Assembly (NCBI RefSeq): GCF_026344005.1
Contig: NZ_JAPKNH010000004.1
Location: forward strand, 124,001-188,000
DNA: 64,000 nucleotides
Direction of reading: 5' to 3'
DNA from: Kaistia terrae
GTDB lineage: Bacteria; Pseudomonadota; Alphaproteobacteria; Rhizobiales; Kaistiaceae
The notes under the pieces are model-generated. The model made no database searches. It was not told the origin of the DNA and worked only from the letters and a program-made list of their open reading frames with translations. The position numbers were made by a program, and so were the translations under genes. Positions 3 to 10,860 of this stretch are shown here, piece after piece. Position 1 is the first letter of the stretch; the number at the start of each line of letters is the position of its first letter.

Positions 3-848
3 TTATCCTTTGACGCCGCCGAAGGTGAGACCGGCGATCAGATGTTTCTGCACGATGAAGGTCAGGATGAGCGCCGGCACGATGATGATCACGGCCATGG
101 CGCACATGCCGGTCCAGTCGACCGTGAACTGTGCGGTGAAATCCATCAGCCCGACCGGCAGCGTCTTCGACGCGGTGGTCCGGGTGAGCTGGGATGCGAG
201 GGCGAATTCGTTCCACGAGGTCAGGAAGGCGAAGATGCCGGCCGACGCGATGCCGGATTTCGCCAGCGGGAACTCGATCTTCCAGAATGCCTGCCAGCGG
301 GTGCAGCCATCGACCTGGGCGGCTTCCGAAAGCGACAGCGGGATCTGGCGGAAGAAGCCGTCGATCAGCCAGATCGTGAACGGGATGTTGAGCGCCAGAT
401 AGACGAGAATGACGCCGATGCTGGTGTCGATCAGGCCGAGCCGGCTCCAGATGATGAAGACGGGCAGCGACAGGGAAATGCCCGGCACCGTGCGCGAAAG
501 CATCAGCCAGAGGAAGGCGACGTTCTTGCCCTTGAAGCGGTAGCGGGCGAAGGCGTAGCCGCCCATCATGCCGATCAGCACCGCCAGAACCGTGCTCGTC
601 ACCGAGATGACCAGCGAGTTCAGGAAGTAGCGGATGACCGGGATGCCCTGCTGGGTCTCGGACAGGCCCAGGATGGCGCGGAAGTTATCGAGCGTCCAGC
701 GTTCGGGGATCCAGACCGGGGGACGGGCCATCACTTCGACATTGTCGCGGAAGGCCGTCATCACGATCCACAGACCGGGGATGCAGATGATCGCCATGAC
801 GATGAAGATGCCGAAGCGGATCAGCCAGCGCTGCCAGGAGCGTTCCAT
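3..848 (-). CDS. Sugar ABC transporter permease, MalG-type (CUT1 system 1)
   Basis: Inner-membrane permease of a carbohydrate importer, forming the channel with the gene immediately upstream. The 281-residue product has about six hydrophobic segments and the cytoplasmic EAA loop at about residues 175-195 (EAAQVDG followed by a FPLAKSG-type end), which docks on the ATPase in this family. It ends in GGVKG, usual for MalG-type subunits. The ATG directly abuts the stop of the MalF-type gene, so the two are co-translated. No ATPase gene follows before the left edge of the window. Substrate is unknown; the neighbours suggest a deoxy-sugar or sugar acid. Confidence 0.93.
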   Translation of the reverse strand: MERSWQRWLIRFGIFIVMAIICIPGLWIVMTAFRDNVEVMARPPVWIPERWTLDNFRAILGLSETQQGIPVIRYFLNSLVISVTSTVLAVLIGMMGGYAFARYRFKGKNVAFLWLMLSRTVPGISLSLPVFIIWSRLGLIDTSIGVILVYLALNIPFTIWLIDGFFRQIPLSLSEAAQVDGCTRWQAFWKIEFPLAKSGIASAGIFAFLTSWNEFALASQLTRTTASKTLPVGLMDFTAQFTVDWTGMCAMAVIIIVPALILTFIVQKHLIAGLTFGGVKG

Positions 849-1751
849 TTATTCGACTCCGCCCATGGTGCGTCGCGCCGCGGCGAGCTTCCGGAAGAAA
901 TAGACGGTGAAATAGACCGACAGCAGGATCGAGGCGTAGGACATGGCGTTGGCCATGCCCATGCGGGCGTCCTGGTAGCCGGTGCGGGCGATCAGCGTCC
1001 AGAGCAGCTCGGTGCGGCCGGCCGGGCCGCCATTCGTCATGATCTTGACCGTGTCATAGGCGCGCGCCACGTCGAGCGAGCGGATGGCCATGGCGATGTA
1101 GACGAAGGGCATCAGGTAGGGCAGCGTGATGTGGCGGAAGACTTGCCACGGATTGCAGCCATCGACCTTGGCCGCCTCGACCGGATCTCGCGGCATGGCC
1201 ATCAGGCCCGCCAGCAGCAGGATCGCGAAGATCGGCGTCGACATCCAGACCTCGGCCATCAGGATGGCGAGGTTGGCGGTGACCGGGTTCACCAGCCACG
1301 GGATCGTCACGTTTTCCCAGCCGAGCGACTGGATCGCGTTGTTCACCAGGCCGACATTGTCGTTGAAGATGTACTTGAACTGGAAGCCGACCAGGATCGG
1401 CGAGAACATCATCGGGAACATCATGATGGTGCGGATGATGCGCTGGCCGGCGGTCAGCTTGTCGATCAGCAACGCGATGCCGAGACCCAGCACCAGTTCC
1501 AGATTGAGCGCGACCGTCAGGAAGACCAGCGTGCGGCCGAAGGCCCACCAGAAATCGACGTCGGTCAGCAGGCGCTGGTAATTGCGCAGGCCGACCCACT
1601 GCCAGAGCGAGGCCGGCTGCACCAGGCGATAGCCGGTGAAGCTCGTATAGAGCGAAAACAGGAGCGGCACGGCCACCACCAGCGTGATGATGACGAAGGC
1701 CGGCATCAGCAGCAGGATCGGAGGCGAGAGCCGGCTTCGGAAGAAACGCAT
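849..1751 (-). CDS. Sugar ABC transporter permease, MalF-type (CUT1 system 1)
   Basis: Second channel subunit, 300 residues from the chosen ATG. An upstream in-frame ATG at 1850 would add 33 residues of non-membrane, low-quality sequence overlapping the hairpin region, so the internal ATG before RFFRSRL is preferred. The first membrane segment begins about residue 12. The EAA loop (EAAKVDGCNPWQVF, then ITLPYLMP) lies in the C-terminal half and fits the CUT1 family. It lies 168 bp downstream of the binding-protein gene, with a strong hairpin between, and is probably expressed from the same promoter at a lower level. Confidence 0.92.
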   Translation of the reverse strand: MRFFRSRLSPPILLLMPAFVIITLVVAVPLLFSLYTSFTGYRLVQPASLWQWVGLRNYQRLLTDVDFWWAFGRTLVFLTVALNLELVLGLGIALLIDKLTAGQRIIRTIMMFPMMFSPILVGFQFKYIFNDNVGLVNNAIQSLGWENVTIPWLVNPVTANLAILMAEVWMSTPIFAILLLAGLMAMPRDPVEAAKVDGCNPWQVFRHITLPYLMPFVYIAMAIRSLDVARAYDTVKIMTNGGPAGRTELLWTLIARTGYQDARMGMANAMSYASILLSVYFTVYFFRKLAAARRTMGGVE

Positions 1752-1871
1752 GAAAGGATTCCGTGAGCCGTTGAACTGGCCTGGACCTAACGGCCCGAGG
1801 TCTTTGTGCCCGCTCTCCGCGAGGAGGGCCGGGCGGGAATGCCGTCGCAATCGTGCGGCATCCCAGAAACA

Positions 1872-1919: not shown

Positions 1920-3257
1920 CTACTGGAGGACGCCGGCGTCTTCCATGATCTGCGTCGCCTTCTTGGCGGCCGTGTCGAGCGCCTCCTGGGCGGTCTTCTG
2001 GCCGACGATGGCAGCCTGCAGTTCCGGCCAGATCACGTTCGACACTTCGATCCACTGCGGAACCAGCGGCGGCGTACGAGCGTCGGCGAGCGAAGCGCCC
2101 CAGACGGCGAACATGTCGGCCATGTACGGCGTGTCGCTCTTCTTGAACTCTTCGACGACGTCGGTGAAGGCCTTGGTCCGGGTCGGCAGATTGCCGGCGC
2201 GGGCTTCCATCATCGCGGAATCGTAGTTGGTCAGGAAGTTGGCGAGGCTGGCGGCAGCCGGCTTGTTGTCACAGGCTTCGGTGACCGAGAAGGAGTGCGA
2301 GCCGGACCAGCCGCCGCGCTTGCCGGCGGTGCCGAGCGGCGACAGGGCGAAGCCGACCTTGCCGGCGACCTTGGACTTGGCCGGGTCGTTGTAGAAGGCG
2401 GCGAAGCCGGGCCAATCGAGATCGACGGCGAGCGTGCCGGCGGCGAAGGCCTGGCCGATATCGTCCCAGGTGTAGTTCACGGTGCCGGCCGGAACAGCCT
2501 TGGCGTTGTAGATGTCGATGAACCACTGCAGGGCGTCGACGCCGGCCTTCGAATTGAAGATCGGCTTCCAGTTCTCGTCGAACATGTCGCCGCCATTGGC
2601 GCGCACGATCTCCATGAACCGGCCGGTCATGCCTTCGTCCTTGCCGGCGAAAGCGGTGCCGTAGAGGTTCGGCGGATTGGCGAAGAAGATGACCTGCTGC
2701 TTCAGCTCGTCATAGGTGACGGGCGGCGCGAGCTCTGTGCCGAACTTCTCCTTGTACTTCGCCTTGTTGTCGGCGTTCTCGTACAGGTCCTTGAGGTAGT
2801 ACAGGTTCGATACGTCGGTGACGCGGGGCAGCTGCACAAGGCGGCCGTCCACCATCGATGCCGCGAGCGTGCCGGGGACGAACTCGTCCAGCGTCGCCTG
2901 CGGGATCAGCGTCTTCAGGTCGACATAGAGGTCGCCGTACTGCGGCGCGAAGCTGGTGTGGTTGGAACCGACGCACCAGGTGATCGCACCGGACGCGATG
3001 TCCTGCTTGATCTCGCGGTCGAGCTCGAAATGGTTCTTCGAGGAAACGATCTCGACCTTGGCGCCGGTCGCCTTTTCCCACTCGGGAATGCGCGTGTAGA
3101 GCTTCTCGTACTGCGTGCCGCCGACGAGCTTCACCTTCAGGGTGTAGCCGGGGAACGAACCCCAATTGGCAGCGTCCTCAGCCGAGGCGACAGCGGTCAG
3201 CGCGCCGAGGGCTGCGCACGAAAAAAAAGCGGCCTGAATGCCGCGCACAAAATTCAT
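1920..3257 (-). CDS. Extracellular sugar-binding protein (CUT1 system 1)
   Basis: Periplasmic ligand receptor for the two permeases downstream. The product is 445 residues with an N-terminal signal peptide (MNFVRGIQAAF, a hydrophobic stretch, cleavage after AVASA near residue 26). The mature part has the family-1 binding-protein pattern (WEKATGAKVEI region, GRFMEIV, FAAGTLAVDLDWPGFA). The ATG at 3257 is chosen over one at 3368 because it starts the signal peptide and is preceded by GGGAGG. It diverges from the IclR gene across a short region with palindromes, so control by that IclR protein is likely. The exact ligand cannot be read from sequence. Confidence 0.93.
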   Translation of the reverse strand: MNFVRGIQAAFFSCAALGALTAVASAEDAANWGSFPGYTLKVKLVGGTQYEKLYTRIPEWEKATGAKVEIVSSKNHFELDREIKQDIASGAITWCVGSNHTSFAPQYGDLYVDLKTLIPQATLDEFVPGTLAASMVDGRLVQLPRVTDVSNLYYLKDLYENADNKAKYKEKFGTELAPPVTYDELKQQVIFFANPPNLYGTAFAGKDEGMTGRFMEIVRANGGDMFDENWKPIFNSKAGVDALQWFIDIYNAKAVPAGTVNYTWDDIGQAFAAGTLAVDLDWPGFAAFYNDPAKSKVAGKVGFALSPLGTAGKRGGWSGSHSFSVTEACDNKPAAASLANFLTNYDSAMMEARAGNLPTRTKAFTDVVEEFKKSDTPYMADMFAVWGASLADARTPPLVPQWIEVSNVIWPELQAAIVGQKTAQEALDTAAKKATQIMEDAGVLQ

Positions 3258-3323: not shown

Positions 3324-3369
3324 GAATGGAGCATTCGTATATAAGCGAAATTGACTGGAACGAGTCAAT
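3324..3369. promoter_or_regulatory. Divergent promoter region with two inverted repeats (IclR operator candidates)
   Basis: Between the leftward binding-protein gene and the rightward iclR gene lie GAATG-GAG-CATTC (3324-3336, perfect) and ATTGACT-6 nt-AGTCAAT (3350-3369, perfect 7-bp arms). Dyads of this size in the gap between an IclR regulator and its target fit operators for autoregulation and control of the transporter. Binding is inferred. Confidence 0.55.
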
Positions 3370-3415
3370 GTCTAACTTGTCACGGCCGGGCCCTGCGCCC
3401 ATGGGGAGGCGCATC

Positions 3416-4198
3416 ATGCTGGACGACGCGAACGACCGATATCGCGCACCCGCCCTCGACAAGGGGCTGGATATTCTCGAACTGCTCGCCGCGACCGACG
3501 AGAGCATGACGCAGGCGGAAATCGCCAAGGCGCTGAACCGTTCGCCGAACGAGATCTACCGCATGCTCGACCGCCTCGTGCGCCGTAGCTATGTCGCGCG
3601 CGTGCATGGTGACCGCTACGAGCTAACGCTGCGCCTGTTCGCGCTGGCGCATCAGCATGCGCCCGTTCGCCGGCTCGTCAGCCAGGCGCTGCCGGTGATG
3701 CGGCAGTTCTCGCGCGATTCGGAACAGGCCTGCCATCTCGCCATCTATGACCGCGGCCGGATCGTCGTCGTCGCCCAGATGGATGCGCCAAGCTATTGGA
3801 GTTATTCGATTCGTGTCGGTGCGCGGGTCAGCTTGTACAACACCGGCTCCGGCCATGTGCTGCTCGCTTTCGCTACGCCGGAAGAGCGCGTCATGATGGA
3901 AGCCGAGCGCGAGGAGCAGGCCGAGGACAAGGGCCGGCCGGATAATCTCGACGAGAGGCTGACCCAGATTCGCCGTCGCGGCTACGAATCGACGCCGAGC
4001 TCCCAGTCGCAATCCGTCTACAATCTGTCGGTCCCGGTGCTGGGCGCCAATGATACGGCACTGGCGGCGCTGACCTGTCCGTTCCTGCCGCGCATCGATC
4101 GTCCCAACGTCCCCGACATGCAGGAGGCGATGACCATCCTGCTCGCCGCCAGCCGCGACCTGTCGCATGTGCTCGGGCGCGGCCAAGCCGAAGCGTGA
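3416..4198 (+). CDS. IclR-family transcriptional regulator
   Basis: DNA-binding regulator of about 260 residues. The N-terminal winged helix-turn-helix lies at about residues 15-75 (MTQAEIAKALNRSPNEIYRM is the helix-turn-helix); the rest matches the IclR effector domain. ATGs at 3326, 3368 and 3401 are in frame, but GGGGAGG lies 6 nt before the ATG at 3416, and the 3368 ATG sits inside a palindromic operator candidate. The start at 3416 is therefore preferred. It diverges from the system 1 importer and heads the catabolic operon to its right, so it probably regulates both. The effector is unknown. Confidence 0.92.
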   Translation: MLDDANDRYRAPALDKGLDILELLAATDESMTQAEIAKALNRSPNEIYRMLDRLVRRSYVARVHGDRYELTLRLFALAHQHAPVRRLVSQALPVMRQFSRDSEQACHLAIYDRGRIVVVAQMDAPSYWSYSIRVGARVSLYNTGSGHVLLAFATPEERVMMEAEREEQAEDKGRPDNLDERLTQIRRRGYESTPSSQSQSVYNLSVPVLGANDTALAALTCPFLPRIDRPNVPDMQEAMTILLAASRDLSHVLGRGQAEA

Positions 4199-4345
4199 TC
4201 CCTGTTCCATGCGGCCGGCAGGGAATCACCCCGCTTTGACCGCCCAGAATCCCGACAGATCGGCTTGTCAGGCGCCGGTTTGACGTAAATGATGAACTCA
4301 CAGATGAATGGACCGGACGTTCAAATTCCGGCCGGAGGAGACGCC

Positions 4346-5176
4346 ATGCGGATGATCGATACCCACCTCCACCTGGTCTATCAGGAGCGGTTTTCCTATC
4401 CGTGGCTCGGCGGCGCGCCGGCGCTCAATCGCAATTTCACGCTGGAAGATTACCTGCCGCAGGCGAAAGCCGCCGGCATCACCGACATGCTGCACATGGA
4501 AGTCGATGTCGCCGAGGCTGACATCGAGCCCGAGACGGCGTTCGTCACCGGGCTCGGCCAGGGTGTGATCGGCGCGATTGCCGCCTGCCGTCCCGAGAGC
4601 CCGGATTTCGCCGGCCAGCTTGAGCGCCTCGCCGCCAATCCGAAGGTCAAGGGCCTGCGCCGCATCCTGCATCAGTCGCCGGACGAGCTTGGCCAGCAGC
4701 CGATCTTCGCCGAAAACATCAAGCGCCTCGCCGCCCACAAGCTGACGTTCGACTTCTGCGTGCTGCCGCGCCAGATCCCGATTGCGATCGCCATCGCCAA
4801 GGCGGCGCCCGACGTGCAGTTCGTCGTCGATCATTGCGGCGTGCCGGATGTCAAGGACAAGGCTTTTGAGCCCTGGCGCACCAACATGACGGCGATCGCC
4901 GAACTGCCCAACGTCGCTGCCAAGATTTCCGGGGTCATCGCCTATGGCGATCCCGTCAACTGGACGGTCGACGACCTGCGCCCCTTCGTCGAACACACGA
5001 TCGGTGCGTTTGGCTGGGACCGCGTTGTCTGGGGCTCGGATTGGCCGGTCTGCACGCTGACCGCCGATCTCGGCCGCTGGGTCGCGGCGACGCACGAGAT
5101 CATTGCCGGCGCCAGCGAAGACGAGAAGGCCGGCCTGCTTCACCGCAACGCCGAGCGGATTTACCGGCTGGACTAG
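4346..5176 (+). CDS. Amidohydrolase-family lactonase-like hydrolase
   Basis: A 276-residue TIM-barrel hydrolase of the amidohydrolase-2 family (COG3618 type), which includes L-fucono- and L-rhamnono-lactonases and 2-pyrone-4,6-dicarboxylate lactonase. Visible active-site elements are DTHLHL (residues 5-10), VVDHCGVPD with His at about 163, and VWGSDWPVC with Asp at about 232. The ATG at 4346 is preferred to 4289 because GGAGGAG lies 5 nt upstream and the metal-binding motif then sits at the N-terminus as usual. With a rhamnose mutarotase homologue and a sugar oxidoreductase downstream, a sugar-lactone substrate is the best guess. Confidence 0.85.
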   Translation: MRMIDTHLHLVYQERFSYPWLGGAPALNRNFTLEDYLPQAKAAGITDMLHMEVDVAEADIEPETAFVTGLGQGVIGAIAACRPESPDFAGQLERLAANPKVKGLRRILHQSPDELGQQPIFAENIKRLAAHKLTFDFCVLPRQIPIAIAIAKAAPDVQFVVDHCGVPDVKDKAFEPWRTNMTAIAELPNVAAKISGVIAYGDPVNWTVDDLRPFVEHTIGAFGWDRVVWGSDWPVCTLTADLGRWVAATHEIIAGASEDEKAGLLHRNAERIYRLD

Positions 5177-5360: not shown

Positions 5361-5690
5361 ATGCAGCGTATGGGAAATGTCATCGGCCTGCAGGACGGGG
5401 CGATCGCCGAATACAAGCGCCTGCACGCCGCCGTCTGGCCGGGCGTCCTGGCCAAGATTGCCGACTGCAATATCAAGAACTATTCGATCTACCTGAAGGA
5501 GCCGGAAAACCTGCTCTTCGCCTATTTCGAATATCACGGCACCGACTTCGCCGCCGACAGCGCCAAGATGGCCGAGGACGCGACCACGCAGGAATGGTGG
5601 GCCGTCTGCATGCCGCTGCAGAAGCCGCTCGACACCCGCAAGGAAGGCGAGTGGTGGGCTGGCATGGAAGAAGTCTTCCACATCGACTGA
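5361..5690 (+). CDS. rhaM: L-rhamnose mutarotase family protein
   Basis: A 109-residue ferredoxin-like protein of the RhaM family, which interconverts sugar anomers. The expected active-site pattern is present: Tyr18, His22, Tyr41 and the tryptophan pair near residue 75 (QEWWAVCMP). The start is supported by GGGAGGG a few bases upstream; the longer reading frame from 5103 would run through the palindromic element and the preceding gene. A second family member lies at 59604-59918 with the same Tyr-His-Tyr spacing. The cognate sugar need not be rhamnose, since this family acts on several deoxy-sugars. Confidence 0.9.
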   Translation: MQRMGNVIGLQDGAIAEYKRLHAAVWPGVLAKIADCNIKNYSIYLKEPENLLFAYFEYHGTDFAADSAKMAEDATTQEWWAVCMPLQKPLDTRKEGEWWAGMEEVFHID

Positions 5691-5771: not shown

Positions 5772-6863
5772 ATGACGTCCTTCGACCCCGCATCGCTGGC
5801 CCAGTCCTGGCCGCTTCCGACCGCGCCCCGGCCCATCGTCATCATCGGCGCCGGTGGCATCGTCAACGACGCACATCTGCCGGCTTATGCGCTGGCGGGC
5901 TTCCCTGTCGCCGGCATCTTCGATCGCGATGTTGGGCGCGCCAAGGCGCTGGCCGATCAATGGGGCGTGCCCTTCTTTCGGGCGATGGATGAGGCGGTTG
6001 CGGTTCGTGATGCGGTGTTCGATCTAGCAACGCCGCCTGTCGCCCATCTGGAGATCCTGCGCCGCCTGCCCAAGGGAGCGGCGGTGCTGATCCAGAAGCC
6101 GATGGGCCGCGATCTCGACGAGGCGACGGCGATCCTGAACCTCTGCCGCGAGCGCCAGTTCAAGGCCGCCGTCAATTTCCAGCTCCGCTTCTCGCCGATG
6201 ATGCTGGCGGTCAGGGATGCGCTGGAGAAGGGCCTGCTCGGCCGGCTGGTCGATGTCGAGATGCATCTGAACCTCGTCACGCCCTGGCATCTGTTCCCAT
6301 TCCTGAAGGGGATGTCGCGGGTCGAGATCGCGGTGCATTCGATCCACTATCTCGACCTGATCCGCGGCATGCTGGGCAATCCGACCGGCATTCATGCGCG
6401 TACGCTGGGCCATCCCGGCAACGAACTGGCGCAGACCCGCACCTCGGCGATGCTCGATTTCGGCGGGGATGTCCGTTGCGCCTTGTCGATCAACCATGAC
6501 CATGATTTCGGGCGAAAATTCCAGGACGCGACCTTCCGCTTCGAGGGCGACAAGGGCGCGGCTTCGGTCAAGCTCGGCCTGCTGCTCAACTATCCGGAAG
6601 GCGAGCCGGATGAACTCTGGATCACGGCCTCGCGTGGGGCGGACGCCAACTGGCAACAAGTGCCGCTTACCGGCGGCTGGTTCCCGCATGCGTTTGCCGG
6701 CGTGATGTCGAATTTGCAGCGCTTTTCTGCCGGCGAGGACGCGAGCCTCGTCACGTCCGTCGAGGACGCCTGGCACACGATGGCGCTGGTCGAGGCGGCG
6801 TTCCGCTCGGCCGCAGAGCCTGCCACGCCGGTGCCGCAACAGCCCGGAGCGAGCGTGGCCTGA
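5772..6863 (+). CDS. Gfo/Idh/MocA-family NAD(P)-dependent oxidoreductase
   Basis: A 363-residue sugar or inositol dehydrogenase homologue. The N-terminal Rossmann fold has GAGGIVNDAHLP (residues 26-37). The usual EKP catalytic motif reads QKP here (residues 108-110, VLIQKPMGRDL), so the Lys is kept but the Glu is replaced by Gln. The C-terminal substrate domain follows (HSIHYLDLIRGM). A Shine-Dalgarno-like GAGG precedes the ATG. It lies in the IclR-linked operon and probably oxidises the transported sugar or a derivative. Confidence 0.87.
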   Translation: MTSFDPASLAQSWPLPTAPRPIVIIGAGGIVNDAHLPAYALAGFPVAGIFDRDVGRAKALADQWGVPFFRAMDEAVAVRDAVFDLATPPVAHLEILRRLPKGAAVLIQKPMGRDLDEATAILNLCRERQFKAAVNFQLRFSPMMLAVRDALEKGLLGRLVDVEMHLNLVTPWHLFPFLKGMSRVEIAVHSIHYLDLIRGMLGNPTGIHARTLGHPGNELAQTRTSAMLDFGGDVRCALSINHDHDFGRKFQDATFRFEGDKGAASVKLGLLLNYPEGEPDELWITASRGADANWQQVPLTGGWFPHAFAGVMSNLQRFSAGEDASLVTSVEDAWHTMALVEAAFRSAAEPATPVPQQPGASVA

Positions 6864-6879
6864 TCAAAACAATCAATCG

Positions 6880-6932
6880 ATCTGCAGGGTGGAATCTTGA
6901 TTTGCAGATGAGCGGATGATTGATATATGAAT
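6880..6932 (+). promoter_or_regulatory. Candidate internal promoter with inverted repeat before the MaoC-like gene
   Basis: The 91-bp gap has arms ATCTGCA (6880-6886) and TGCAGAT (6903-6909). It also has a possible sigma-70 promoter, TTGATT (6897-6902), 17 nt, TTGATA (6920-6925). AT content is higher than in the flanks. This could give the last three genes of the operon separate control. Weak evidence. Confidence 0.35.
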
Positions 6933-6954
6933 TCTGCTTTAGGGAGGATGAGCC

Positions 6955-7515
6955 ATGGCAGCCGAGACATTTGCACCTACGGTCGGTGTGGAATCGACGC
7001 ATCCCAAGGACATGCCGAAGGAGCATTCCAACCTGCCGGTCTGGAATGCGGAAAACTGGCTGTATGAGGATTGGCCGGTCGGCCAGAAGATCCGTTCGCT
7101 GCGCCGCACGATCGGCGAGGGCGAGTCGCACCTGTTCAACGCGCTGGTCGTCGACATCCATCCCTACGTCCAGGATCAGATGTTCGCAGAGAGCGAAGGC
7201 GTGTTCGGCCGCCGCCTTGTCGCCGGCGCCTTCGTCTTTTCGGCCGGCCTCGGCCTTGTCGCGACCAACTGCGTCAACGCCTTTTCCTATGGCTATGACA
7301 AGCTCCGCTTCATCAAGCCGGTCTTCATCGGCGACACCATCTACACGATCCGCACCAACATAGATAAGCGGCCGAAATACGAGAAAATGGGCCTGATCCG
7401 TGCGGCCTATGAAGTCTACAAGGGCGACGGTGAGCTGGTGCTTTATTGCGAGCATCTGCAGACCGTCCGCTACCGCGATCCCACCGCCTTCGCCGACCAG
7501 GTCGAGAAGAAATAG
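6955..7515 (+). CDS. MaoC-like hotdog-fold protein with altered active site
   Basis: A 186-residue protein of the MaoC/(R)-enoyl-CoA hydratase fold. The hydratase signature D-x-N-P-x-H-x-D reads D-I-H-P-Y-V-Q-D at residues 67-74, so both Asp residues remain but the catalytic His position is Val and the Asn is His. The glycine-rich stretch [17 protein letters not shown] that follows is typical of the fold. AGGGAGG precedes the ATG. It is 5 nt from the CoA-transferase gene, so the two surely act together. Classical enoyl-CoA hydration is doubtful; a changed chemistry or CoA-ester binding are alternatives. Confidence 0.85.
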
Positions 7516-7520
7516 GCCCC

Positions 7521-8678
7521 ATGTCCCAGTCCGATTTGCCACTCGACGGTCTGCTCGTCGTTGATCTCAGCCAGTTCTTGTCTGGTCCCTATTGCGCGCT
7601 GCGGCTGCGCGATCTCGGCGCCCGCGTCATCAAGATCGAGCGCCCGGATGGCGGTGATCTCTGCCGCCGCCTGTATCTGACCGACACCGAAATCGGCGGC
7701 GATTCCACGCTCTTCCACGCGATCAACCGCGACAAGGAGAGCTATGCCGTCGACATGAAGAACCCGGTCGAGCTGGAGAGCCTGAAGAAGCTCCTGGCCA
7801 AGGCCGATGTCGTCATGCAGAATTTTCGCCCCGGCGTGATCAACCGCCTCGGCCTCGGCTACGAGACGATCACGGCGATCAATCCCGACGTCGTCTATGG
7901 CTCGATCACCGGCTATGGCGACGAGGGGCCGTGGGTCACGCGTCCCGGCCAGGATTTGCTGGCGCAGGCGCGTTCCGGCGTCACCTGGCTGAACGGCGAC
8001 GAGGGGCAGGGGCCGGTGCCGTTCGGCCTCGCCATCGCCGACATGCTGGCGGGTGCAGCGCTTTGCCAGGGCGTGCTGGCGGCGCTTGTCCGGCGCGGCA
8101 TTTCGGGCAAGGGCTCGCATGTCGAGACCAGCCTGATCGAGGCGCTGGTCGACTTCCAGTTCGAGGTGCTGACGACGCATCTGAACGATGGCGGCCGCAA
8201 GCCGACCCGCGCCAATTTCCGCAGCGCCCATGCCTATCTGTCGGCGCCCTACGGCATCTATCCGACCCAGAACGGCTTCCTCGCCGTCGCCATGACGCCG
8301 ATTCCGAAGCTGGCCGACCTGCTGGAAATGCCGGAACTGGACCTCTATCGCGACACGCCGAAGAGCTGGTTCTCGGAGCGCGACGCGATCAAGCGCCTGA
8401 TCGCCAACCGGCTTGCGACCGAGACGACCGAGCATTGGCTGTCGATCCTCGAGCCGGCCGATATCTGGTGCGCCAAGGTGCTGGAATGGCCGGAGCTGCT
8501 GCAAAGCGAAGGCTTCACCTCGCTCGACATGCTGCAGACGGTGGAGCGCGCCGACAATGTCCGCGTCGTCACCACGCGCTCGCCGATCCGCGTCGATGGC
8601 AAGCGCCCGCCGGTCTCGCGCGCCGCGCCGCGCATCGGCGAGCACACGGAAGAGATCCGGGCCGAATTCGGCCTGTGA
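7521..8678 (+). CDS. Class III (CaiB/BaiF) CoA-transferase
   Basis: A 385-residue family III CoA-transferase, which moves CoA from a donor thioester to an organic acid through an aspartyl anhydride. The N-terminus (LPLDGLLVVDLSQFLSGPYC), the RVIKIERPDGGD segment and the catalytic Asp region (GLAIADMLAG, Asp at about residue 174) are all present and length is normal. An upstream in-frame ATG at 7446 lies inside the MaoC-like gene and is rejected. It shows that an acid is activated to a CoA ester in this pathway, unusual beside a sugar importer. Confidence 0.92.
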   Translation: MSQSDLPLDGLLVVDLSQFLSGPYCALRLRDLGARVIKIERPDGGDLCRRLYLTDTEIGGDSTLFHAINRDKESYAVDMKNPVELESLKKLLAKADVVMQNFRPGVINRLGLGYETITAINPDVVYGSITGYGDEGPWVTRPGQDLLAQARSGVTWLNGDEGQGPVPFGLAIADMLAGAALCQGVLAALVRRGISGKGSHVETSLIEALVDFQFEVLTTHLNDGGRKPTRANFRSAHAYLSAPYGIYPTQNGFLAVAMTPIPKLADLLEMPELDLYRDTPKSWFSERDAIKRLIANRLATETTEHWLSILEPADIWCAKVLEWPELLQSEGFTSLDMLQTVERADNVRVVTTRSPIRVDGKRPPVSRAAPRIGEHTEEIRAEFGL

Positions 8679-8703
8679 GGGAGAAAGCTCGTCCTCGCTT
8701 CAT

Positions 8704-8821
8704 CTCTCCCTGAGGGAGAGGTCGACGGCCAAAGGTCGGCGGGTGAGGGTTTAGGGAACCATCCGGGAGAGGGCGTAAACCCTCACCCGGACCTGCGGTC
8801 CGACCTCTCCGTTAGGGAGAG
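8704..8821. repeat. CTCTCCC-type long inverted repeat
   Basis: The outer arms at 8704-8724 and 8801-8821 are imperfect complements built on CTCTCCCTGAGGGAGAGGTCG; the inner 13-bp arms GGGTGAGGGTTTA (8741-8753) and its complement (8776-8788) are perfect. This kind of element is common between genes in Hyphomicrobiales. A short relative lies at 43731-43757. It separates the CoA-transferase from the next gene and could end or process the message. Confidence 0.8.
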
Positions 8822-8892
8822 GGGAAGGGCCAGTTTCATTGCCAGCCGGGATCCTGCGCGACGCGAGCGATCTCGACCGAGGGGGAATAGAA

Positions 8893-10032
8893 ATGACCAA
8901 GCCAATCACGCTCAAGGGCATGACCTGGAGCCATCCGCGCGGCTACGATCCCGTTGTCGCCGGCGCCGAACTCTATCTCAAGGAGACGGGCGTTCAGGTC
9001 GAATGGGACAAGCGCTCGCTGCAGGATTTCGAGAGCTTCCCGGTCGAGGAACTGGCGCGCACCTATGATCTGATCGTCATCGATCACCCGCATGTCGGCC
9101 AGATCACCAAGGAAGGCTGCCTGGCGCCGCTCGACGTGCCGGGCCGCGAGGCCGAGCGCGAGGCGTTGGCCGCCGGTTCCGTTGGCCTGTCCTATCCGAG
9201 CTACACCTGGCAGGGCCATCAGTGGGCTTTCCCGATCGATGCCGCGACGCCGGTTCTGGCGTATCGCCCCGATCTGATCGATACGCCGCCGACGACGTGG
9301 GACGAAGTCCTGGCGCTCGGGGCCGGCAAGGCGCTGATGCCGTTCCGCGCGCCGCATTCGCTGATGAGCTTCTATTCGCTCGCCGCCAATCTCGGCCGCC
9401 CTTGCAACGTCACGGGCGAGGGCAACCTGATCGACCCAGAGGTGGGCGTTCGCGTTTATGAGCTGCTGCAGAGCCTCGCTGCCAACGGCGTGGCTGATTT
9501 TGACAGCGACCCGATCGAGGTATTCGAGAAGCTGGCGGCGGAAGGTTCTGAAATTGCCGTCGCGCCGCTGCTCTATGGCTATGTGAGCTATGCGTTTGAG
9601 GGCTTCCGCCCCAATCGTCTCGCCTTCGCGGACATGCCGATTCTGGGTGAGAACGGCCCGGTCGGTTCGGCGCTTGGCGGTACGGGCATCGCCGTCTCTG
9701 CCTATTCGGAAAACCGCGACGCGGCCATCGATCTCGCCTACTGGCTCGCCAGCGCCACCATCCAGCGCGGCATCTATGCGCAAAATGGCGGCCAGCCCGG
9801 CCATGCGACGGCGTGGGAAGATCCCGCCGTCAATGCGCCGACGCATGGCTTCTATGAGAACACGCGGCCGACGCTGGAAGGCGCCTGGCTGCGCCCGCGC
9901 CACAATGGCTACATGGAGTTCCAGGACGCAGCGGCAAAGCGCATCAACGAGGCGCTGAAGGCCGGCGAGCCCGGCGCGTCGCTGGTCGCCGAGCTGAACC
10001 TGCTGTTCCGCGAGAGCTTCGCCAACGCCTGA
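8893..10032 (+). CDS. Leaderless solute-binding-protein homologue (apparently cytoplasmic)
   Basis: A 379-residue protein with the fold pattern of family-1 ABC solute-binding proteins (GMTWSHPRGYDPVV at the N-terminus, SGF/ITKEGCLAPLD and a GGTGIAVSA region) but no signal peptide. The start MTKPITLKG leads straight into what is the mature N-terminus in relatives. The only upstream extension (to 8839) is polar and non-secretory. It is the last gene of the IclR-linked operon and is not beside permease genes, although system 1 already has its own secreted receptor at 1920-3257. It may bind the substrate or its CoA ester in the cytoplasm, or have become an enzyme. Export by another route cannot be excluded. 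Confidence 0.85.
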   Translation: MTKPITLKGMTWSHPRGYDPVVAGAELYLKETGVQVEWDKRSLQDFESFPVEELARTYDLIVIDHPHVGQITKEGCLAPLDVPGREAEREALAAGSVGLSYPSYTWQGHQWAFPIDAATPVLAYRPDLIDTPPTTWDEVLALGAGKALMPFRAPHSLMSFYSLAANLGRPCNVTGEGNLIDPEVGVRVYELLQSLAANGVADFDSDPIEVFEKLAAEGSEIAVAPLLYGYVSYAFEGFRPNRLAFADMPILGENGPVGSALGGTGIAVSAYSENRDAAIDLAYWLASATIQRGIYAQNGGQPGHATAWEDPAVNAPTHGFYENTRPTLEGAWLRPRHNGYMEFQDAAAKRINEALKAGEPGASLVAELNLLFRESFANA

Positions 10033-10053
10033 GCCGAGGCTAGCCTTGGAACG

Positions 10054-10083
10054 AAACGGGGCGCGATTGCGCCCCGTTTTTTT
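10054..10083 (+). terminator. Rho-independent terminator of the module 1 operon
   Basis: A perfect 11-bp GC-rich stem (AAACGGGGCGC at 10054-10064, complement at 10069-10079) with a 4-nt loop is followed by seven T residues, 22 nt after the stop of the leaderless binding-protein gene. Confidence 0.93.
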
Positions 10084-10119
10084 GTCTGAAGTGTCCGCCG
10101 GTCGGGCGGTCAGTCGAAC

Positions 10120-10131
10120 ATTGTTAACAAT
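10120..10131. promoter_or_regulatory. Perfect palindrome downstream of gntR (operator candidate)
   Basis: ATTGTTAACAAT is a perfect 12-bp palindrome with the T-GT...AC-A layout common to GntR/FadR-type operators. A copy with one mismatch lies at 10872-10883 on the other side of the gntR gene. Confidence 0.45.
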
Positions 10132-10164
10132 CGTGTCGAGGGCTGAAGCCCCTACGGTTTGCGA

Positions 10165-10860
10165 TCAGGCGGGAGAATCCTGCAACAGCTGCTCGCGCAG
10201 ACGGCCATAGGCGGCCTGGATATGCGCGTCGATAGCGCTGACGGCTTTCGCCACGTCGCGCTCGCGCAATTGCGCCAGCAGGCTCGAATGATCGCGGTGC
10301 CAGGACGTCAGGTAGTCGTCCGGCAGACCGTCGCGCAGCAGCAGGAACACCAGGATCTGCGAGCGCAGCGCCTCCCAGGCGCGATAGAGCCGGGCATGAT
10401 GGGCGGCCCGAAACAGCGCATCATGGAAATCGATATCCAGTTCGGCGACGCGGCGACGGGTCATGCTCGCGCGCGGAACGGATTGAAAAACCAGAAGAAT
10501 TGCTTCCATCGGGGCCAGATCCGCCTCGGTCGCCTTGAGACAGGCGCTCTCTATGGCCAGCCGCTCCAGGGCGCGACGCAGCGTGTAGATCTCGTCCGCG
10601 TCTTCGACCGACACGCGCGCCACCGTGGCGCCGCGATGCGTCTCGTGGATGACCAGACCTTCCTGCTGCAGGCGAAAGATTGCCGCCCGGATCGGCCCCC
10701 GGCTCACCTTCAGGCTTTCGGCCAGTTCGTCCTCGATCAGGCGCGCGCCGCTCGCGATGCGGCCGCTCAAAATGGCTTCGCGGATTGAATCCGCGACATC
10801 GTCGGTCAGGACGCGGCGTTCGCGTCTCTCGAAGGGAGGCGTCACTGGGCTCTTGCTCAT
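10165..10860 (-). CDS. GntR-family regulator, FCD subfamily
   Basis: A 231-residue regulator. The winged helix-turn-helix occupies about residues 18-80 (LIEDELAESLKVSRGPIRAA), followed by an alpha-helical FCD effector domain with the expected acidic and histidine positions (ELDIDFHDALFRAAHH, SWHRDHSSLL). It diverges from the 2-hydroxyacid dehydrogenase gene across 69 bp. TGTTAACAAT palindromes before and after the gene suggest autoregulation and control of that dehydrogenase. FCD regulators usually respond to organic or sugar acids. Confidence 0.9.
   Translation of the reverse strand: MSKSPVTPPFERRERRVLTDDVADSIREAILSGRIASGARLIEDELAESLKVSRGPIRAAIFRLQQEGLVIHETHRGATVARVSVEDADEIYTLRRALERLAIESACLKATEADLAPMEAILLVFQSVPRASMTRRRVAELDIDFHDALFRAAHHARLYRAWEALRSQILVFLLLRDGLPDDYLTSWHRDHSSLLAQLRERDVAKAVSAIDAHIQAAYGRLREQLLQDSPA

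Follow-up and report, generated by a model that had tools for sequence, protein, structure and literature searches.

Why should a gene for a protein with the fold of a sugar receptor and no leader for export follow a gene for a coenzyme A (CoA)-transferase? The question is raised by three consecutive genes on the plus strand of a 64,000-nucleotide stretch of Kaistia terrae DNA (the window; C32:124001-188000 of a 5.59 Mb genome), which encode a MaoC-domain protein (MaoC1), a class III CoA-transferase (CoAT) beginning 5 bp further on and a solute-binding-protein homologue (SBPx). All three were confirmed as real genes, and Pfam matches bear out the families to which a preliminary description of the window had assigned them. 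Our preferred reading, which we consider possible though somewhat short of probable, is that the genes would act on a sugar acid in a CoA-dependent step, in which SBPx would be the cytosolic partner of CoAT; the substrate, the elimination chemistry and the part of SBPx are what we infer from sequence comparison.

Public records label relatives of SBPx as extracellular or carbohydrate ATP-binding cassette (ABC) binding proteins. The gene in the window most likely starts at ATG 8893, which has GGGGGA upstream, rather than at TTG 8839; its product is 90% identical to the Kaistia granuli counterpart, and a search of 297 genomes from the order found the family in 39 (E ≤ 1e-40, up to six candidates scored per genome), the listed matches starting at query residue 1-10. 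Leaders were scored with a hydrophobicity measure of our own, the highest value of any 12-residue window when every start within 60 codons upstream was allowed, values of 2.0 or more being taken as signal-like. The comparison covered 133 SBPx sequences from the window, the best 80 of at least 562 relatives (the 80-locus set), 45 further loci and 7 plasmid loci, a redundant collection in which some species occur in two of the sources. None of the 133 reached the threshold (maximum 1.61). Of the ABC binding proteins encoded at these loci, 71 of 80 did (minimum 1.78). The ABC binding protein of the window's cluster served as this hydrophobicity control instead of a conservation control, for which it was dropped as too uniform: among the candidates scored, 11 of the 150 genomes searched from the order contained its family (at least 55% identity), with no weaker match as far as E 1e-40 and none between E 1e-40 and 2e-153. 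As judged by this score, SBPx is without an export signal or lipoprotein leader and appears to stay in the cytosol, in agreement with the preliminary description, which had called the gene leaderless; a signal peptide at an upstream start in relatives, named there as a refuting finding, was not seen.

The position of the gene points the same way. CoAT lies upstream of SBPx, on the same strand and within 2.5 kb, in 102 of the 133 cases (with MaoC2, a second MaoC protein, in between in locus L064); it is downstream in 13 and non-adjacent in 17, and one row (L168) has no scorable motif. In 88 of these 102 loci the CoAT stop shares bases with a start codon available to SBPx (NTGA), although a CoAT ending in CTG-TGA creates an overlapping GTG by itself. 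The distance from the CoAT stop to a conserved GMTWxHPRGYDP-like motif at the SBPx N-terminus is for this reason the stronger point, and it is at most 13 codons in 95 of 102 loci (13 codons in L040, a 92% identical relative). In the window the two genes are separated by 214 bp, which include a palindromic repeat of ~130 bp that belongs to a family of this genome resembling repetitive extragenic palindromes. CoAT matches PF02515 over its full length with the nucleophilic Asp intact, as had been described; the residue is kept in 122 of the 124 best CoAT matches, the exceptions being one Ala in a shifted alignment and one sequence in which the position is uncovered. The best scores were obtained with transferases of the succinate/glutarate, mesaconate and formyl-CoA type, none of them above an equivalog cut-off (best 197 bits versus cut-offs of 700 and 750).

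Gene neighbourhoods were then compared within the fetched stretches. CoAT was present in 79 loci of the 80-locus set and directly upstream of SBPx in 78. Other neighbours were an IclR-type regulator (66 loci), a lactonase (62), MaoC1 (61, some fragmentary), an ABC binding protein (57), a Gfo-type oxidoreductase (47), the mutarotase RhaM (46), MaoC2 (45) and an enolase-superfamily (MR/MLE) protein (39), the 9-kb flanks holding down the counts of those named last. The trio is part of a conserved oxidative aldose cluster made up of ABC importer, IclR, lactonase, RhaM, Gfo, MaoC, CoAT and SBPx genes. A distant set, 30 loci whose SBPx is less than 50% identical (22 from the order, 5 from the class and 3 plasmids; L057, L114 and L149 were scored alongside and lie outside the 30 by their higher identity), was searched at E ≤ 1e-8 with queries from the window's own cluster and genome. 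A CoAT match was found in 25 of the 30, and all 25 also had a MaoC or crotonase match, sometimes non-adjacent; the five loci without CoAT (L067, L069, L169, L170 and L171) had neither. A further six loci, three from outside the class, all matched both CoAT and a hydratase, and among the 25 distant loci in which CoAT was found, 15 gave no MR/MLE or ILVD/EDD match. The recurring unit is the pair of CoAT and SBPx, and its more general hydratase partner is not MaoC1 but an intact MaoC2 or a crotonase.

In L067, L068 and L069, SBPx lies near a match to the catalytic domain of MetE (PF01717 in L068; by similarity in L067 and L069) and near short-chain dehydrogenase/reductase (SDR) genes, joined in L067 and L068 by a Zn-alcohol dehydrogenase, and this gene set perhaps represents a route for another sugar.

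The pair recurs well beyond the class, in Streptomyces and on a Bacteroidota plasmid. Streptomyces sp. NBC_00184 has CoAT, SBPx and an enoyl-CoA hydratase joined by 4-bp overlaps, followed by a fumarylacetoacetate hydrolase (FAH)-family protein related to 9kkt and weakly to 2-keto-3-deoxy-D-arabinonate dehydratase; the same order and the same 4-bp overlaps of CoAT, SBPx and enoyl-CoA hydratase are found in Pseudosulfitobacter. The run in Persicobacter psychrovividus (Bacteroidota, L215) reads RhaT-SBPx-CoAT-CoAT-SBPy-Gfo-alcohol dehydrogenase-SDR-MaoC2 and adjoins IclR, propeller lactonase and alpha-L-fucosidase genes. SBPy denotes a second leaderless binding-protein family, which aligns in part with SBPx at 24% identity and occurs at L212:1417-2604 and L215:7556-8788 and also in L210 and L211, all of them loci with two CoATs; two receptors accompany two transferases in Persicobacter and Croceibacterium. 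On a Streptomyces plasmid (L183), SBPx, CoAT and MaoC genes are found with those for an NADP aldehyde dehydrogenase and a member of the FAH family, a set suggestive of a pentose-to-2-oxoglutarate route.

These loci bear directly on whether SBPx could be an ordinary receptor of an ABC transporter whose signal peptide was missed or which is exported in another way. The public labels would fit that explanation, as would the ABC importer found near SBPx in many loci; one is present in the window's own cluster, on the minus strand, which qualifies the earlier remark that SBPx has no permease beside it. This importer, however, has its own leader-bearing binding protein, and the 133 N-termini without a signal-like segment and a start tied to the CoAT stop also speak against an ordinary receptor. 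SBPx moreover persists in loci that encode, as carrier, RhaT (L064, L215) or a protein of the major facilitator superfamily (MFS; L183, L184), and in those loci it is therefore probably not an ABC receptor. ABC permease matches in L064 lie 8 kb off, behind a divergent IclR gene, and none appears in the gene table of 24 kb for L215, a table that is itself incomplete. Given the missing leader, the CoAT-tied start and the RhaT carrier of L215, we rejected this explanation as largely contradicted and highly improbable.

A structure model of SBPx built from 54 sequences (the window and 53 of the 80-locus set) reached a predicted local distance difference test score (pLDDT) of 90.9 and a predicted template modelling score (pTM) of 0.88, and matched the sugar receptors 5yse, 7ape and 7ofy with TMq 0.75-0.82. 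The 20 best structural matches were ABC binding proteins, with entries of maltose-binding protein (MBP) fusions further down; a search of viral folds returned weak matches only, the best to Bug-type proteins. According to the model, SBPx is predicted to have a family-1 sugar-receptor fold. Among the residues invariant in 41 of 41 sequences down to 32% identity are W12, H14, R16, W38, D59, D64, H65, Y104, D116, Y230, Y233, Q301, W308 and R334, and residues 14-20, 59-69 and 116 align with stretches of MBP that we take to line its cleft.

Such a pattern could mean that SBPx is a new enzyme on a periplasmic-binding-protein fold, for example an isomerase or lyase, acting on a CoA thioester or sugar acid beside the CoAT step. 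The acid/base residues H14, R16, D64, H65, D116 and R334, together with the three tyrosines, are among the invariant ones, part of them in the presumed cleft segments, and carrier, dehydrogenase, lactonase and hydratase types change while CoAT and SBPx recur. Pure binding of one ligand class, however, predicts conserved cleft residues equally, no family of known reaction was matched, and the 20 best structural matches are ABC binding proteins; we regard a new enzyme as unlikely. The more specific role of a C-C lyase of the route was disfavoured because the downstream cleavage genes vary (FAH types, with RraA and PfkB nearby) while SBPx stays. The receptor fold and the IclR gene in 66 of 80 loci would suit a passive cytosolic carrier or sensor of sugar or aldonate, for instance one signalling to IclR, outside catalysis. 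This we judge improbable, as it is CoAT, not the regulator, whose stop the SBPx start overlaps, and as the regulator type changes (IclR, LacI).

The active-site motif of MaoC-type hydratase 2 is D-x-N-P-x-H. MaoC1 has the MaoC (hot-dog) domain but does not carry this motif: the window reads D-I-H-P-Y-V-Q-D, with Val for the motif His and His for the motif Asn. Among copies above the length cut, D-x-H-P-Y-V-x-D was found in 75 of 75 (window included). An alignment of 43 copies shows D67 and H69, two residues apart, in all 43. The catalytic His is thus gone, as had been claimed, although the claim of a lost base overlooked that the Asn position is an invariant His. A structure model of MaoC1 was too poor (pLDDT 59) and was set aside. 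MaoC2, at L080:14313-14759 and 3.2 kb left of the window edge, has an intact motif (D-F-F-P-H-H-M-D), whose D and H are both present in all 34 copies that pass the length cut; without that cut the motif was present in 62 of 64 matches, the other two being fragments in L159. Over the fetched stretches of 120 loci, with length cuts applied and flank length limiting the counts, both MaoC proteins were found in 18, MaoC1 only in 56, MaoC2 only in 15 and neither in 31. MaoC1 was confined to Alphaproteobacteria among the fetched loci. It is a dispensable member of the cluster, and on these counts the trio was rejected as the unit. What stands of the earlier joint interpretation, given the missing leader and the link to CoAT across phyla, is a cytoplasmic system in which an acid would be loaded on CoA with a receptor fold beside the transferase; adjacency limited to close relatives, which would have weakened it, applies in part to MaoC1 and not to CoAT and SBPx, which adjoin far outside. 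In the Mesorhizobium loci L134, L145 and L147, MaoC1 exists only in pieces while CoAT (in two pieces in L147) and SBPx are kept.

The likely substrate class is indicated by compact gene runs. L064 reads IclR-RhaT-Gfo-amidohydrolase-RhaM-CoAT-MaoC2-SBPx-iron alcohol dehydrogenase, and L079 (by Pfam) and L072 and L073 (by similarity) have enoyl-CoA hydratase-SDR-ATPase-SMP30 lactonase-SBPx-CoAT behind sugar ABC genes; these runs suggest that the pathway branches at the aldonate. A rhamnosidase-like gene in L212 starts within a CoAT stop (246 bits versus a 1300-bit cut-off, with the rhamnosidase jelly-roll domain above its cut-off), and L186 holds a homologue of L-2,4-diketo-3-deoxyrhamnonate hydrolase. 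Together with the alpha-L-fucosidase of L215, these genes suggest a sugar of the L-fucose/L-rhamnose kind. The compact runs and the sugar genes lead us to propose that CoAT, partnered by SBPx in the cytosol, would activate a sugar acid with CoA, a proposal that starts from features read in the sequences themselves (the missing leader, the fold, the coupling to CoAT, the recurrence across phyla and the exchange of carrier and hydratase type). Oxidative aldose catabolism would proceed through import, mutarotation by RhaM, 1-oxidation by Gfo and lactone opening by the amidohydrolase to the aldonate. CoAT would move CoA onto the aldonate or a keto acid derived from it, while the SBPx cleft would hold the polyhydroxy acid and SBPx would either present it to CoAT or act on the thioester. 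Less surely, the hydratase (intact MaoC2, elsewhere a crotonase) might then remove the 3-OH of the activated acid by elimination on the thioester, giving a 2-keto-3-deoxy thioester from which CoAT would hand the CoA to the next aldonate, by analogy with CaiB/CaiD and carnitine. MaoC1 could, as a guess, be a companion subunit of MaoC2; a base shifted to its H69 is equally open. The wider claim of a CoA-dependent aldonate-processing system in Pseudomonadota, Actinomycetota and Bacteroidota, in which a class III CoA-transferase would have a leaderless sugar-receptor fold as its working subunit or enzyme and elimination on the CoA ester would replace metal-dependent sugar-acid dehydratases, we consider doubtful.

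Several observations weigh against CoA activation of the sugar acid. The cluster of the window's clade contains an MR/MLE gene (39/80; here L080:15763-16869) that could dehydrate, so that activation need not serve the dehydration step, and of the 25 CoAT-bearing distant loci 10 give MR/MLE or ILVD/EDD matches. SBPx stands without CoAT in the fetched stretch of the five distant loci named above, with MR/MLE genes in L170 and L171, and CoAT is also missing from L057 and L159. L114, L207 and L208 have two CoATs with one SBP detected and no SBPy match, and a rule of one receptor per transferase fails on them. Complete CoA-free routes adjoin the module in L185 and L186 and lie ~10 kb off in S. meliloti, which has its copy on pSymB and where the homologous cluster reportedly gives an L-fucose mutant phenotype, with the MR/MLE gene as fuconate dehydratase. 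Full routes of this type (L-fuconate dehydratase, SDR and fumarylacetoacetate-type hydrolase) alongside the module, and the ~10 kb that part CoAT and SBPx from such a route in S. meliloti, would be explained if CoAT, MaoC and SBPx served a second compound, such as the acid of a modified sugar, and shared only regulation with the fucose/rhamnose-type genes. We hold this quite improbable in view of the compact loci L064, L072, L073 and L079, whose chief enzymes are dehydrogenase, lactonase, CoAT, hydratase and SBPx, albeit L072 qualifies the argument, with MR/MLE and ILVD-type matches 4-5 kb away on the other strand.

Comparison with known systems yielded partial likenesses. In the CaiB/CaiD carnitine system a class III CoA-transferase works with a hydratase/dehydratase on the CoA ester; that pairing is shared, whereas CaiB/CaiD has no receptor-fold partner and another substrate, and the hydratase here is a MaoC or crotonase. 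MqnA and MqnD are cytosolic enzymes on the periplasmic-binding-protein fold and resemble SBPx, as we read it, in being a pathway-tied receptor fold recruited inside the cell, although they are not among the SBPx matches seen. With family-1 ABC sugar-binding proteins (LpqY, SmoF, the beta-1,2-glucooligosaccharide-binding protein) SBPx shares the fold and the SBP_bac_1/8 profiles; it differs from them in having no signal peptide, in its translational coupling to CoAT and in operons of the L064 type and L215 that have no ABC importer. The oxidative L-fucose/L-rhamnose pathway with 2,4-diketo-3-deoxy acid hydrolase has mutarotase, dehydrogenase, lactonase and SDR in common with the cluster, and L185, L186 and L214 have genes annotated as L-fuconate dehydratase and FAH-family hydrolase, as in that pathway; to our knowledge its textbook form has no place for CoAT, MaoC1, MaoC2 or SBPx. 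Both MaoC proteins match beta-methylmalyl-CoA/mesaconyl-CoA dehydratase, an enzyme of two MaoC domains (8hgn, 4e3e), but are encoded by two separate genes, and MaoC1 is without the motif His. Full-text literature searches, judged by titles and abstract openings, gave nothing on the pairing of CoAT with SBPx. Passages of PMC9007349 refer, for deoxyribonate oxidation, to an unknown glyceryl-CoA hydrolase and do not touch on a CoAT-SBPx system.

Upstream of the trio the IclR, lactonase, RhaM and Gfo genes run on the plus strand, divergent from the ABC importer genes, and the divergent run goes on left of the window with an ATPase, an enolase-superfamily protein, an SDR and MaoC2 (Table 1). The separate promoter that had been placed ahead of the trio was not recovered, with 0 sigma-70-like sites in 6800-10200 and other promoter types outside that scan. 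The terminator-like hairpin is weak on its own because the stretch holds 2 such sites against 1.9 expected from shuffles.

Table 1 Features of the cluster within the window (locus counts refer to the 80-locus set)
Feature	Position	Strand	Evidence and occurrence
ABC permease 2, sugar importer	3..848	-	43/80 loci
ABC permease 1, start codon uncertain	849..1850	-	56/80 loci
ABC solute-binding protein, signal-like N-terminus	1920..3257	-	no Pfam family at 1e-3; ortholog set compared
IclR-type regulator	3368..4198	+	PF01614/PF09339; 66/80 loci
Amidohydrolase-family lactonase, L-fucono-1,5-lactonase-like	4289..5176	+	114 bits, far under 400-bit cut-off; 62/80 loci
RhaM-type mutarotase	5361..5690	+	PF05336 4e-32; 46/80 loci
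Gfo/Idh/MocA oxidoreductase	5772..6863	+	PF01408 5e-13; 47/80 loci
MaoC1, MaoC-domain protein	6955..7515	+	PF01575 3e-11; D67-x-H69-P-Y-V-x-D74
Class III CoA-transferase (CoAT)	7521..8678	+	PF02515 6e-95; Asp145 at nucleophile position
Dispersed palindromic repeat between CoAT and SBPx	8698..8827	.	at least 40 genomic places among 158 candidates
SBPx, leaderless, predicted sugar-receptor fold	8893..10032	+	N-terminal motif LKGMTWSHPRGYDP; SBP_bac_8 1.6e-15, SBP_bac_1 1.3e-11
Terminator-like hairpin 3' of SBPx	10053..10080	+	12-pair stem, T tail

Collectively, the proteins labelled 'extracellular solute-binding protein' in many genomes (at least 562 stretches with relatives) are most likely cytosolic pathway components, and the cluster suggests an undescribed breakdown route for sugars such as fucose or rhamnose. 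If CoA activation of the sugar acid is true, the breakdown of sugar acids by rhizobia, Streptomyces and marine users of fucose would gain a thioester branch, and SBPx would be a new example of a transport receptor that has become part of metabolism.

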